42,896 nt of DNA from Candidatus Rokuibacteriota bacterium (lineage in GTDB: Bacteria > Methylomirabilota > Methylomirabilia > Rokubacteriales > CSP1-6): assembly GCA_003220435.1 (NCBI GenBank), contig QHSL01000093.1, forward strand, positions 1 through 42,896, given 5' to 3'. A model generated the notes under the pieces. That model made no database searches and was not told where the DNA came from. It saw only the letters and a program-made list of their open reading frames with translations. Below are positions 1 to 4,914 of the stretch, one piece after another. Each line of letters starts with the position of its first letter. Position 1 is the stretch's first letter. The position numbers and the translations under genes were made by a program.

Positions 1-1220
1 AGCGTCCGCGCGATCTGGAGCGCGCGGCTCTTCGTCTCGATGACGGCGAGGTTGCAGAATTCGATACCGGTGCAGCTCACCAGCCCGCGCATGATCTGCG
101 AGGGGTCGTAGCGGAGCACCTTGAGGAGCGGCTCGGCGGTCAGGTTGCCGAGCTTGGCGTCTGGCACGTGTGGGACGATCACGTTCTGGTCCACCGTCAG
201 TCGCACCTCGCCGGTGCCGTAGCCTTCGGCCAGCCGCGCGACCTCGGCGAGTTGATCGCCGGTGATCCGCCCGACCGGGACGAGCAAGCCGACCCAGCTC
301 AGCGTGGGCTGCTTCTGGCGGAAGACGCCGACGTGGTCGGTCCCCGCCGGTGCGCGTTCGTCGACGCCCGCCCGCTCGAGCGGCCGCCCCAGTCGCCCCT
401 CGAGCGCATCGCGGAACTTCGCCTCGCCCCACTCCTCAAGCAGGAACGCCAGGCGGATCTTGTTGCGCGCGTCTCGCGAGCCGTGGTCGCGATAGAGGAA
501 CACGATCGCACTCGACAGCTCCACCGCCTCGCCGGGGAGCACGAAGACGTCCAGCGGCGTCGCGATCCGGTAGCCGCCGGAGCCGTTCTTGCCGCCGACG
601 AGCACGTTGAAGCCATGGTCGGTCTCGCCGCCGAGCGATCTCGTCGCTGGCACGAGGGCGAGGTCCTGCGTCTCGGCGTGCGTGCAGTTGTCGCGGCAAC
701 CGGTGATCGTGATGTTGAACTTCCGAGGGAGGTTCGTGTATGCCACGTCGCCCACGAACGTGTCGGTGAAGGCGCGCGCGACCGGCGAGGCGTCGAACAG
801 CTCGTTGGGCGTGAGCCCGGCGACGGCGCAGCCGACGACGTTGCGAATGTTATCCATCCCGGTCTGGAGCGTCACGAGCCCGACCTTGCGGAGCTCCTCG
901 AGGATCGGCGGCACGTCGTTGATCTGGATCCAGCGGAGCTGGATTTGTTGTCGCGTGGTGATGTCGGCGATCCCGCGCCCGACGCGGTTGGCGATGCGGC
1001 CGATCGTACGGAGCTGCGCAGCGCTAGTGATCCCGTTCGGGATGCGGATCCGCATCATGAAGTGACCGGGCGTGTGCTTGCGGAAGAAGATCCCCCACCA
1101 CTTCAGCCGCTCCAGGTCGCCCTCCTCGATCGCCTCGACCCCGAGCTCCGCGTAGCGGGGAATGTCTCGACCGACCTCGAGGCCGCCCTTCTCCGCTTTG
1201 ATCTGTTCGATCTTGTTCAC
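1..1220 (-). CDS. nirA: Ferredoxin-nitrite reductase (assimilatory), C-terminus outside window
   Basis: Siroheme/4Fe-4S enzyme that reduces nitrite to ammonium with ferredoxin in nitrate assimilation. The minus-strand frame is open for 406 codons from GTG at 1220 to the window edge. It shows the paired ferredoxin-like half-domain layout of the family. The N-terminal half has the TRQQIQLRW segment and the GCRDNC / HAETQDL stretch. The second half has GLVSCTGIEFCNLAVIETK, where Cys383 and Cys389 form the first C-x5-C pair of cluster/siroheme ligands; the second pair (GCPNxC) would lie beyond base 1. GTG is chosen because GGGAGA sits about 8 nt upstream. A structured leader with a terminator precedes it. 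A sulfite reductase is the main alternative; the leader and motif wording favour nitrite. Confidence 0.88.
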   Translation of the reverse strand, partial: MNKIEQIKAEKGGLEVGRDIPRYAELGVEAIEEGDLERLKWWGIFFRKHTPGHFMMRIRIPNGITSAAQLRTIGRIANRVGRGIADITTRQQIQLRWIQINDVPPILEELRKVGLVTLQTGMDNIRNVVGCAVAGLTPNELFDASPVARAFTDTFVGDVAYTNLPRKFNITITGCRDNCTHAETQDLALVPATRSLGGETDHGFNVLVGGKNGSGGYRIATPLDVFVLPGEAVELSSAIVFLYRDHGSRDARNKIRLAFLLEEWGEAKFRDALEGRLGRPLERAGVDERAPAGTDHVGVFRQKQPTLSWVGLLVPVGRITGDQLAEVARLAEGYGTGEVRLTVDQNVIVPHVPDAKLGNLTAEPLLKVLRYDPSQIMRGLVSCTGIEFCNLAVIETKSRALQIART

Positions 1221-1253
1221 AGCGATCTCCCTTCGCGCCGGCGGCGCGTGAAC

Positions 1254-1292
1254 AAAAAAAGGGCACCCTCCCCATTGAGGAAAGGCACCCTT
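1254..1292 (-). terminator. Leader terminator (attenuator) upstream of nirA
   Basis: On the minus strand, bases 1292-1278 pair with 1273-1259 through 15 consecutive pairs, several of them G-U, closing a 4-nt CAAT loop. A run of T follows (1260-1254, seven T in all). This is an intrinsic terminator 34 nt before the nirA GTG, between promoter and gene, so it can only act as an attenuator. Its 5' arm overlaps the second leader hairpin (1300-1279), so the two folds exclude each other. Confidence 0.75.
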
Positions 1293-1322
1293 GCCTTTCC
1301 GAGAGTCCGACGTGGGACTCTC
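1279..1322 (-). promoter_or_regulatory. Tandem-hairpin antiterminator leader of nirA (ANTAR/NasR-NasT type candidate)
   Basis: Two perfect hairpins abut on the minus strand. P1 (1322-1301) has an 8-bp stem GAGAGTCC/GGACTCTC and hexaloop CACGTC. P2 (1300-1279) has a 9-bp stem GGAAAGGCA/TGCCTTTCC and loop AGGG. If the top A-U pair opens, the P2 loop becomes AAGGGU, with A at position 1 and G at position 4, as in known ANTAR-protein targets. The P1 loop keeps G4 but has C at position 1. P2 shares bases 1292-1279 with the terminator. Two hairpins plus a competing terminator before a nitrite reductase is the arrangement known from NasR/NasT-controlled operons. No ANTAR gene is visible in the window. 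Confidence 0.6.
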
Positions 1323-1342: not shown

Positions 1343-1358
1343 CTCAAGCGGCGTGCCA
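1343..1358 (-). promoter_or_regulatory. Sigma54-like promoter upstream of nirA
   Basis: On the minus strand TGGCAC (1358-1353), five bases, then TTGAG (1347-1343) resemble the -24/-12 elements TGGCAC-N5-TTGCA. The -24 box is perfect. The -12 box has A where the conserved C is expected. A start about 12 nt downstream would fall near 1332, ten bases before the first leader hairpin, which is a sensible transcript start. Confidence 0.4.
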
Positions 1359-2179: not shown

Positions 2180-2507
2180 TCCAGCTCACTCGGTTCGCCA
2201 CGATCGGGCCCGTCCTTCCGTTAGGCTGCTCGCCGCCCCACCCCCTAAAGGTCCAGCGTCCTTCAGTGGCGGCCCGACGGGCCCGCACTGCTTGCCTCCC
2301 CTCCTGTCTACAGTCTCCTAAACATTCCTTGGCCTGTCGCGAGAGCGTCGGCCGTCGTCGTCCACTGAGTGGGATGAGGTTTTGGCGAAGGACAGCCGCT
2401 GTCGTCCTACTCTTCAGCCTCGTGGCGAGCGGGCAGATCAGGTTGCGGAGGATCGACGGCTGGCGGAAGATCGCCTCTGTGCTCAGCCAGCACACGGCGG
2501 TGGCGGC
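2180..2507. other. No gene recognised; upstream region of the substrate-binding protein gene
   Basis: The 328 bases between the integrase remnant and the substrate-binding protein hold only short overlapping frames without motifs. An in-frame extension of the next gene starts at 2382, but it reads as arginine-rich non-signal sequence, so the gene start is placed at 2508. No clear promoter boxes were seen. Confidence 0.45.
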
Positions 2508-3443
2508 ATGATGATCGTACGCGCGGCGCTTGCGGTCGTCCTTGGCCTCGGCATCCTGGTCACGCCGCTCGCCGCCGAGACGCAGCCAGCGGGGAAGGTC
2601 TGGCGAATTGGTCTATTCCATGTCGGTCTCGATCACGTCCCTCCGTCACTCGACGGTCTGCGCGAGGGCCTGACGGCTCTTGGCTATGAAGAGGGGAAGA
2701 ATATCCACTTCGACTGGCGCAACCTCGCCGACGAAGACGCAGCACGCACTACTGCGCAAGCGTTTGTGCGTGACCGAGTCGATCTCATCATAGCGTTTGA
2801 GAATCAGACGGTGCGAGCTGTGAAAGCCACCACCACCGAAATTCCTGTCGTCATGTTGCACGTCACTGCCCCGGTCGAAAACGGCTTCATCAAGAGCTTC
2901 GCTCACCCTGGCGGCAATTTCACGGGTCTCGCCGGGCTCGGGGACAACCCGTCTAAGGAAGTTGAACTGTTCAAAGAGCTCGTCCCGCGACTTAAGCGGC
3001 TGCTCGTGTTATCTGCGGGCGATCCGGCGTCATCACGCTGGCTCGCGGATGTCCGGCAAGCCGCGACCAAACTCAAACGTGAGTTGGTCGAGCGGGAAAC
3101 GGCGACGCGGGCTGATATTGAGCGCGTGTTCGCCGCGATCAAGCCAGGCGATGTCGACGGCGTGTTCATCAGCTCACCTGACCTCCGCACCAGGTTCTTA
3201 GCGCTCATCTTAGAGCTTGCCTCCAACAGACACCTGCCGCTCCAGGGCCACCGCAGGGAATGGGTGGAACAAGGTGCGCTGTTTTCCTACGGCGAAGTCC
3301 TAAGCTTGCTGGATAACGAGACGGGGATGCACTCTTGCTTGGAATCCAAAACCCAAGCGTCGCCGGTTGGCGCCGGCGGCAAGAGGAGGCATCCCCGTGC
3401 CCACGAGAATACCGGCATCGGAGCGGACGAGCCAGAAGCTTGA
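2508..3443 (+). pseudogene. ABC transporter substrate-binding protein, 3' end cut by IS256-family insertion
   Basis: Starting at tandem ATGATG (2508/2511), the protein opens with a signal peptide (MIVRAALAVVLGLGILVTPLAA). It continues as a PF04392-type (TrpX-like) periplasmic binding protein: KVWRIGLFHVG, LREGLTALGYEEGKNI, VDLIIAFENQTVRAVKATTTEIPVV and HPGGNFTGL. Family members are about 325 residues. Here homology stops near residue 270 (base about 3318), just after GALFSYGEVLSLL, and the frame runs 40-odd codons into IS sequence to a stop at 3443. About 50 C-terminal residues are lost and no fragment of them was recognised beyond the IS. Many such proteins are orphan binding proteins; no permease or ATPase gene lies nearby. 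The ligand cannot be told. Confidence 0.8.
3323..3396 (+). promoter_or_regulatory. Hairpin sequestering the transposase ribosome binding site
   Basis: GGGGATGC-A-CTCTTGC (3323-3338) pairs with GCAAGAG-GAG-GCATCCCC (3379-3396), giving 15 bp with a small asymmetric bulge. Nested inside are GCTTGG/CCAAGC and a GCCGG/CCGGC stem. The AGGAGG ribosome binding site (3384-3389) is inside the right arm, and the GTG start (3397) follows it directly. Transcripts entering from outside the IS would fold and hide the start, a protection device known for other insertion sequences such as IS10 and IS50. Confidence 0.6.
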
Positions 3444-4735
3444 TGAGCTGCTGACCCAGGGTGTGGCCGACGGCGACGCCCGCGCCGAGCTGCTCAAGCT
3501 GGCGGTGCGCAAGATCGTGGAGGAAGCGCTGGAAGCAGAGGTCGCCGAGGCCGTGGGGCGCGGCTACTACGAGAGCGGGGCGCCGCCCGGCGCCGGCTAC
3601 CGCAATGGCTATCGCCGCGGCCGGCTCGCCACCGCCGAGGGACCTATCGAGTATGGAGTCCCGCAAGTCGCCGATCGCGCCGAGCCGTTTGTCTCCCGCG
3701 TGCGGGCCGGCCTGGCGGGGCGCACGGCGGAGCTGGAGCGCTTGGCGGTGGAGATGTTCGCGCGCGGGCTGAGCACGCGAGACATCGAAGCGGCGTTTCG
3801 GGACGCCAGCGGGGCCAGCGTGCTGAGCCGGACGGCGGTCAGCCAGGTGACCGAGCGGCTCTGGCAGGAGTACGAAGCCTTCGCCGGGCGGGACCTCAGC
3901 GAATTCTCGGTCGCCTATCTGTTCGTGGACGGGGTGGCGGAGCGGCTGCACGCCGGGCTGCCGCGAGAAGCGGTGCGCTGTGCCTGGGGCATCACCGACG
4001 ACGGCCAGAAGGCCCTGCTGCACCTGGCGCCGGGCACGAAGGAGGACACGGCGAGTTGCACGGCCTTCTTCGAGGATCTCAAGCGCCGCGGGTTGGCCGA
4101 CCCGCTGCTCGTCGTCACCGACGGGGCGCCCGGGCTGATCCGCGCTGTGGAGATATGCTTCCCACGGGCGCTGCGCCAGCGCTGCCTGGCGCATCGGCTC
4201 CGCAATCTCCGGAGCAAAGCCCCCGAGAGCCGGTGGCCGGAGATCGCGCTGCGGGCGCGCGGGTGTTACGAGGCCGCGTCGCCGGCCCTCGCCACGGTGC
4301 TGCGCGAGGACTTCGTGCAGACCTACGAGCGGGAGCTGCCGGCGGTGGTGCAGTGTTTCTCTGACGACTTCGCCGCGTGCATCGCCCATCTCCGCTTCCC
4401 GCTTCGGCATCGCCGCGGCGCGCGCACCACGAACCTGCTCGAGCGACTCTTTCTCGAAGAGCGGCGGCGGACAAAGATCATTCCCAACGCGTTCGGCGAG
4501 CGCCCGGTGCTGAAGCTGATGTACGCCGCCGTCATCCGCGCGGCTGAGCGGTGGCGCGGGATCACCGTCGGTGAGTTTGAGCAGCGCCAACTGCGGGCGA
4601 TCCGTGACGAGCTTGGCCGCGCTCATGCCGAACGCGTGGCGCCAGCCATCACCGCCAAGGCGATGCCGCCGATCCGAAAACTGCGAGCTGGCAACGCACT
4701 CGGTAGCGAGCTGACTGGTGTGATTTCAGGCACCC
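3323..4735 (+). mobile_element. IS256-family insertion sequence (approximate ends)
   Basis: One transposase gene of the IS256/Mutator family inserted into the substrate-binding protein gene. The left limit is set where the host protein loses homology, beside the sequence CGGGGATGC. The right limit is a guess near GGCACCCCG (about 4735), whose reverse complement CGGGGTGCC loosely resembles the left end. Convincing 20-30 bp terminal repeats and an 8-9 bp target duplication were not found by eye, so both ends may be off by tens of bases. Confidence 0.6.
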
Positions 4736-4914
4736 CGCCGTTCCGGCGCGACGGATGCCTGACCAGATTCGCGGCCGGCCACTCGACCCCTTGCTTATCG
4801 GCCATTGATCGGCCAATTTCCCCCTCGGCGGCAACGCGCCCTTCAGACGGCGGTGATACCGATTCGGAGGAGTCTTCGAGACCGCCGTCAGGCCGTCGGG
4901 CAAGTCCCGCCTGA
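3397..4914 (+). CDS. IS256-family (Mutator) transposase
   Basis: DDE transposase that cuts and joins the element's ends. The GTG start is chosen because AAGAGGAGG lies 7 nt upstream; the first residues read PTRIPASERTSQKLDELL. Visible family features are EALEAEVAEAVGRGYYE and YRNGYRRG near the N-terminus, the first catalytic Asp in LFVDGV, the second in LLVVTDGAPGL followed by CLAHRLRNL, and the catalytic Glu in RTTNLLERLFLEERRRTKII. Relatives are about 400-430 residues. This frame is 505 because it continues past the usual C-terminus (near AERVAPAITAKAMP) without a stop, into serine/proline-rich sequence that looks non-coding. The 3' end of the element may therefore be truncated or joined to foreign DNA. 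Confidence 0.88.
   Translation: MPTRIPASERTSQKLDELLTQGVADGDARAELLKLAVRKIVEEALEAEVAEAVGRGYYESGAPPGAGYRNGYRRGRLATAEGPIEYGVPQVADRAEPFVSRVRAGLAGRTAELERLAVEMFARGLSTRDIEAAFRDASGASVLSRTAVSQVTERLWQEYEAFAGRDLSEFSVAYLFVDGVAERLHAGLPREAVRCAWGITDDGQKALLHLAPGTKEDTASCTAFFEDLKRRGLADPLLVVTDGAPGLIRAVEICFPRALRQRCLAHRLRNLRSKAPESRWPEIALRARGCYEAASPALATVLREDFVQTYERELPAVVQCFSDDFAACIAHLRFPLRHRRGARTTNLLERLFLEERRRTKIIPNAFGERPVLKLMYAAVIRAAERWRGITVGEFEQRQLRAIRDELGRAHAERVAPAITAKAMPPIRKLRAGNALGSELTGVISGTPPFRRDGCLTRFAAGHSTPCLSAIDRPISPSAATRPSDGGDTDSEESSRPPSGRRASPA

Follow-up and report, generated by a model that had tools for sequence, protein, structure and literature searches.

The closest described relatives of the leader presented here are two-hairpin RNAs operated by ANTAR proteins. 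EutV acts on leaders of the Enterococcus faecalis eut genes, which carry hexaloops with G at position 4 (G4) and a second hairpin (P2) that overlaps a terminator (PMC3369931, PMC8934654). NasR acts on the nasF leader of Klebsiella oxytoca, a two-hairpin antiterminator with C:G loop-closing pairs in a nitrite/nitrate assimilation operon, and detects nitrate through a NIT domain of its own (PMC7496416). NasT of the NasS-NasT pair in Paracoccus and Azotobacter is a REC-ANTAR protein that serves an assimilatory nitrate/nitrite gene set, and the pair dissociates with nitrate or nitrite (PMC3795266). In diverse bacteria, a covariance search by Ramesh et al. 2012 (PMC3369931) located ANTAR targets in front of genes for nitrite reductase and urea transporters. 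The strict form of the target has A at position 1 (A1) and G4 in both loops (PMC3369931), and a looser form tolerates hexaloops with one point variation, with a linker of about 2–25 nt between the stems (PMC8164766).

A leader of this kind precedes nirA, a gene of the ferredoxin-nitrite reductase family, in an uncultured Rokubacteria genome, and it is very probably an ANTAR-operated transcription attenuator of that gene. It resembles the EutV leaders in its G4 hexaloops, in the overlap of P2 with the terminator, and in an inter-loop distance (16 nt) similar to the 18 nt of eutP, but serves another pathway, begins its first loop with C, and is matched in its genome by an ANTAR protein (ANTAR1) with alanine where EutV is phosphorylated on Asp54 (PMC3369931, PMC8934654). 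It shares with nasF the type of operon, the two-hairpin antiterminator, and the C:G closing pairs, and differs in that no protein with the NIT domain of NasR was found in the genome. With NasS-NasT it shares a REC-ANTAR regulator and the gene set, and differs in that no NasS was found and that the ANTAR gene is linked to urtA. Relative to the targets of Ramesh et al. (PMC3369931), the kind of leader and the gene classes are the same, but the leaders occur in Rokubacteria and position 1 of the loop is relaxed to A or G. This seems to be a switch of an established type that is apparently undescribed in this lineage; a literature search, with supplements and most subscription journals outside its scope, returned no report on ANTAR in Rokubacteria.

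Anatomy of the nirA leader

The window, the whole 42,896-nt stretch that was analyzed, is one contig of a 5.4-Mb assembly (147 contigs, 95.5% complete) and ends inside nirA (3..1220, minus strand), so that the 3' part of the gene lies off the contig end. The product contains NIR_SIR and NIR_SIR_ferr domains, and the best NCBIfam model, PRK09566 (ferredoxin--nitrite reductase), matches with 480.6 bits over 406 aa, a score for a cut gene that does not reach the curated cut-off of 594. The closest nirA genes among named records belong to 'Candidatus Rokuibacteriota' MAGs. The gap of about 34 nt between leader and gene follows from a GTG start at 1220, and the orthologues likewise begin MNKIE; a Shine-Dalgarno-like AAGGGAG was read from the sequence at 1227..1233 of the minus strand.

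The leader, on the same strand, consists of two abutting perfect hairpins followed by an intrinsic terminator. P1 (1301..1322; GAGAGUCC[CACGUC]GGACUCUC) has 8 bp and a hexaloop with G4 but C at position 1, and the antiterminator hairpin P2 (1279..1300; GGAAAGGC[AAGGGU]GCCUUUCC) has 8 bp and a hexaloop with both A1 and G4. The terminator stem-loop (1259..1292) has 15 bp and a 4-nt loop, and the first two of the seven U that end it (1254..1260) lie inside the stem. Because the P2 loop and 3' arm (1292-1279) are also the 5' arm of the terminator, P2 and the terminator are mutually exclusive. This anatomy had been foreseen in the original prediction and was borne out in full: the abutting perfect hairpins (1322-1301 and 1300-1279), the bases that P2 shares with a terminator of 15 bp and seven U, the distance of 34 nt to nirA, and a second loop with A1/G4 beside a first with G4 and no A1.

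The folds are stronger than composition would give, with an energy of -28.6 kcal/mol for P1 and P2 (z -5.5) and of -23.0 for the terminator (z -3.8), each equaled by 0/200 shuffles, and with two (overlapping) terminator-like sites in the leader against 0.6 +/- 0.7 in shuffles. The terminator is the winning fold for the whole leader, as is expected without protein, and RNAfold pairs A1 with U6 of the P2 hexaloop to give a 9-bp stem with a tetraloop. Measured against the published targets, the 8-bp stems and 6-nt loops exceed or equal the dual-hairpin definition (at least 3 bp each, hexanucleotide loops), a C:G pair closes both loops, and P2 shares bases with an intrinsic terminator that cannot form alongside it. 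The window copy lacks the strict A1/G4 pattern in both loops and agrees with the looser hexaloop form, the C1 of P1 being its single departure. Counting against the assignment are the C1 of P1, since EutV position-1 loop mutants lost activity, and the stem-to-stem linker, which is 0 nt when all 8 bp of each hairpin are counted, since eutP was impaired once its linker had been set to 3 or 14 nt (PMC3369931); the loops themselves are 16 nt apart, however, close to the 18 nt of eutP. Attenuation by a leader peptide was considered and rejected by eye, as the short transcript has no plausible reading frame.

Conservation and covariation

The leader is more than a chance arrangement, and both of its alternative folds are conserved in relatives. 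The comparison of nirA orthologue leaders, which had been proposed with the original prediction, found both hairpins conserved with covariation. A MAFFT alignment (A3) was made of 18 nirA leaders: that of the window, those of 12 same-class relatives, and those of five MAGs filed under Deltaproteobacteria. In P1 and P2, 86.9% of cells were paired and both sides had changed in 9 of the 12 pairs, with a covariation of 0.499 against 0.192 in shuffles (0/500) and a slid maximum of 0.159. The terminator also shows compensatory changes over the 18 leaders, with a covariation of 0.355 against 0.218 (0/500; slid maximum 0.299). It should be noted that MAFFT misaligned P1 of one leader (L109), which lowers the P1 and P2 pairing count; this leader was kept in the P1 and P2 covariation and left out of A4. 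Column 45 is paired in both folds in 18/18 sequences, with column 34 in P2 and with column 67 in the terminator, and the partners co-vary.

As a guard against circularity, covariance model R2 left out the leaders of the window, G032, and L109, so that the closest relative of the window was also excluded; it scored these three leaders at 63.8, 57.7, and 47.7 bits, respectively. Within the 5.4-Mb source genome, R2 ranked the window leader first (E 1.2e-14), with second place at 18.9 bits (E 0.096), and model R1 returned the window leader alone followed by chance-level matches from E 0.16, with no second nirA-type leader. Covariance models were substituted for a strict pattern scan of 80 nirA loci (8 found, vs 2/395 shuffled sequences) because that scan missed leaders with an irregular P1. 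R1 had a match at E <= 1e-3 in 26 of 57 family genomes. Of 30 matches with fetched loci, 24 lie just 5' of a coding start, 11 of them before nirA and 13 before nrtA, and the nrtA leaders were absent from the training set of nirA leaders. The other six (L209, L210, L213, L214, L215, and L217) are followed by neither gene and could be decayed or chance matches. In L122 and L158 the leader heads an nrtA-nrtB-nrtC-nitrate reductase-nirA operon (names by eye and from Pfam matches of homologues), and in the Nitrospirae-type MAGs L119 and L123 matches fall 5' of genes that by eye are nirC- or nrtA-like. Among the 80 nirA loci, 25 have a match at E <= 1e-3 somewhere in the locus and 55 have none, including those of Acidobacteria, Chloroflexi, Nitrospinota, and Planctomycetota.

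The combined set of 45 aligned leaders pairs in 89.9% of cells with a covariation of 0.624 vs 0.175, although this alignment was fitted to the model and so leans towards it. An Rfam search found no family on the window leader at the gathering score and, at a lax threshold, chance-level matches only; the 45 covarying leaders could seed a model for RNAs that Rfam did not recognize here. Two nitrate/nitrite clusters carry three ANTAR-type leaders each (L106 at 836, 1150, and 2643; L114 at 1707, 3244, and 3528), as in multi-leader regulons.

A relaxed loop code

Across the 45 leaders the published A1/G4 rule holds at G4 and is relaxed at position 1 to a purine. The P2 loop is absent from the alignment in two leaders, and the other 43 have hexaloops with G4 in 43/43, A2 in 42/43, G5 in 41/43, and either A (23) or G (20) at position 1. 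P1 is more variable: 33 leaders have a hexaloop, with G4 in 29/33 and a purine first in 31, and the window has the only C at position 1 among them; the irregular forms are 5-nt loops in 10 leaders, a 4-nt loop in one, and a 7-nt loop in one, an irregularity that counts against the ANTAR assignment. Both loops of 10/45 leaders (including L106, L111, L113, and L114) have strict A1/G4. The closing pair is C:G in 43/45 P1 and 45/45 P2 hairpins, so the set matches the preference of ANTAR/NasR for G4 and C:G loop-closing pairs (PMC7496416), and the inter-loop distance is 14–22 nt in 40/45 leaders. A group of Rokubacteria nirA/nrtA leaders (L193, L197, L201, L202, L203, L206, L207, and L138) has a 5-nt P1 loop, mostly A-Y-G-R-C, and keeps the P2 hexaloop.

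ANTAR proteins and the probable regulator

The original prediction was to fall if the genome encoded no ANTAR protein and neither hairpin was conserved in relatives; besides the covarying hairpins, the genome encodes two ANTAR proteins, both over the curated Pfam cut-off and both of REC-ANTAR architecture with no further domain match. ANTAR1 (193 aa) has the stronger domain match (80 bits), and its gene lies immediately 5' of urtA, the position found in most of the family. In relatives this neighborhood further includes genes for an ammonium transporter, P-II, and glutamine synthetase; the contig with the ANTAR1 gene breaks off about 0.5 kb on its upstream side. The closest solved structures are Rv1626 (1s8n) and EutV (6wsh/6ww6). 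ANTAR1 keeps the seven RNA contacts of EutV that are named in PMC8934654; mapped by eye with an inferred numbering offset of 2, they read R, K, R (in place of K), K, E, F (in place of Y), and M.

Counting against a role for ANTAR1 at nirA, the two genes are non-adjacent in their own genome. In seven relatives (L063, L106, L108, L111, L113, L114, and L117, the last on one contig with L064) nirA is preceded on its own strand by an ANTAR gene, always within 2.1 kb, at <=0.75 kb in five of them and at about 2 kb with intervening genes in L106 and L114. In genome G069 the ANTAR gene lies 5' of the leader and nrtA. ANTAR proteins are present in 24/26 genomes with a leader (E <= 1e-3) vs 18/31 without, and the Fisher p of 0.0056 overstates independence since the genomes are related members of one family. 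In L111 (2246-3576) and L114 (121-1550) the first few bases of the ANTAR gene are shared with a gene for a class-I glutamine amidotransferase, an overlap that suggests translational coupling and a possible sensor partner.

Of the original prediction, the ANTAR two-hairpin antiterminator was supported and the regulators that it named, NasR and NasS-NasT, were not, as the recommended search of the genome returned the two REC-ANTAR proteins, no NasS/NrtA-like partner, and no NIT-domain NasR. Control by nitrate or nitrite through such regulators is thus unlikely, even with nirA as the target gene, with the same leader heading complete nitrate assimilation operons in relatives, and with NasT itself a REC-ANTAR protein (PMC3795266). 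A NasS gene could be missing from an assembly that is 95.5% complete and in which the nirA contig ends inside the gene, but the best PF13379 match in the genome has 75 bits vs 317 and 331 for NrtA of relatives, and a relative's NrtA used as query had a best match of 27 bits at 29% identity. With REC-ANTAR architecture and no further domain match, neither of the two proteins counts as a NasR, and the linkage of the main ANTAR gene is to urtA rather than to nas genes. With no NasS/NrtA-like partner and no NasR found, the nitrate-responsive antitermination that had been proposed is unproven here.

The second protein, ANTAR2 (234 aa), is an improbable regulator of the leader in place of the urtA-linked ANTAR1. 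It lies over the Pfam cut-off but with a weak domain match (34 vs 80 bits), and by eye it is without counterparts of EutV Lys143, Lys147, and Met172; weaker second ANTAR matches of this sort occur in a minority of family genomes, the urtA-linked type being the common one. The ANTAR2 gene (L002 61-2916) lies, by eye, between genes for a LuxR-type response regulator and a NusG/RfaH-like protein.

A leader of the same shape could in principle answer to a metabolite, the ribosome, or another RNA-binding protein, given that mutually exclusive hairpins are a general device and that the leader is unmatched in Rfam at the gathering score. This is very improbable: the G4 hexaloops, C:G closing pairs, inter-loop distance, and ANTAR-gene linkage point to ANTAR, and by eye no leader peptide is evident. 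The strong terminator is hardly a plain, unregulated one with a fortuitous hairpin beside it, common as intrinsic terminators are, for no minus-strand gene that it might close was identified just upstream of the leader (the closest features identified there are remnants of a transposon on the plus strand), P1 covaries separately from the terminator, and leaders of this build are found repeatedly 5' of nirA and nrtA.

Proposed mechanism and a possible nitrogen regulon

Operation of the leader by an ANTAR protein would proceed from a putative sigma-54 promoter, TGGCACGCCGCTTGA (TGGCACG-N4-TTGA; 1344..1358, minus strand), located 21 nt before P1. The site scores 12.5 of 14.5, with 0/500 shuffles as high, and is off-consensus at its last base, reading GG-N10-GA for the sigma-54 consensus GG-N10-GC. 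Upstream of P1, a sigma-54-like site was found at p <= 0.014 (500 shuffles each) in 12/18 nirA leaders; two more (G023 and G051) have scores up to 11.5 with weaker p, four (G035, L106, L113, and L108) have no such site, and in 8/18 a high-scoring site finishes with GC. A single sigma-54 gene is present in the genome. If the putative promoter is used, the usual sigma-54 spacing would put the transcript start about 10 nt before P1, so that RNA polymerase would probably begin there and make P1, then P2. Without an active ANTAR protein on the RNA, the bases of P2 would instead pair with those farther downstream to form the terminator, ending transcription 34 nt before nirA; an active ANTAR dimer on P1 and P2 would block the terminator and allow nirA to be transcribed. 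ANTAR1 is the likely protein, and its receiver, which has no phosphorylatable Asp, is probably controlled by a partner protein. Precedents for partner control are AmiR by AmiC and NasT by NasS.

The gap between ANTAR1 and urtA (L001 1292-1464, minus strand) holds a sigma-54-like site and a dual hairpin with A1/G4 in both loops, GUCCGCGGCC[AGGGAC]GCUCGCGGAC and CGCGCC[AGCGAC]GUCGCG, 17 nt apart; below the closing pair, each hairpin has a single pyrimidine mismatch. A hairpin scan that allowed one mismatch per stem found A1/G4 dual hairpins in 14/29 ANTAR-urtA regions vs 5/870 shuffles. On 31 ANTAR loci, R1 recovered one clear leader, before urtA in L094 (E 5.8e-6), and the others needed the direct hairpin scan. 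A U-run terminator follows the urtA dual hairpin in L094, and none does in the genome of the window, which counts against the attenuator reading; other ANTAR RNAs control translation (PMC8164766).

These observations suggest one regulator for urea and nitrite use, and provide an uncultured soil lineage with a concrete nitrogen-control switch. More tentatively, there may be a Rokubacterial nitrogen regulon in which a single pseudo-receiver ANTAR protein, without NasS or NasR, governs urt and nirA behind sigma-54 promoters, responds to a signal other than nitrate by way of a partner, and reads a loop code of a purine at position 1, A2, G4, and G5. This raises the question of what signal reaches an Asp-less ANTAR protein that has no adjacent NasS or AmiC-like partner.

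Genomic surroundings of nirA

Two nirA genes of this bacterial clade, without the leader, occur in MAGs titled Thaumarchaeota (L105, 70% identity) and Klebsiella pneumoniae (L110, 65% identity), and are likely the result of mis-binning. In the window, the strand opposite nirA carries an integrase-core (rve_3) fragment (1742-2179) upstream of the leader, and beyond it (2382-4914) a gene for an ABC_sub_bind protein is apparently truncated at the start of a Mutator-family (IS256-like) transposase gene.
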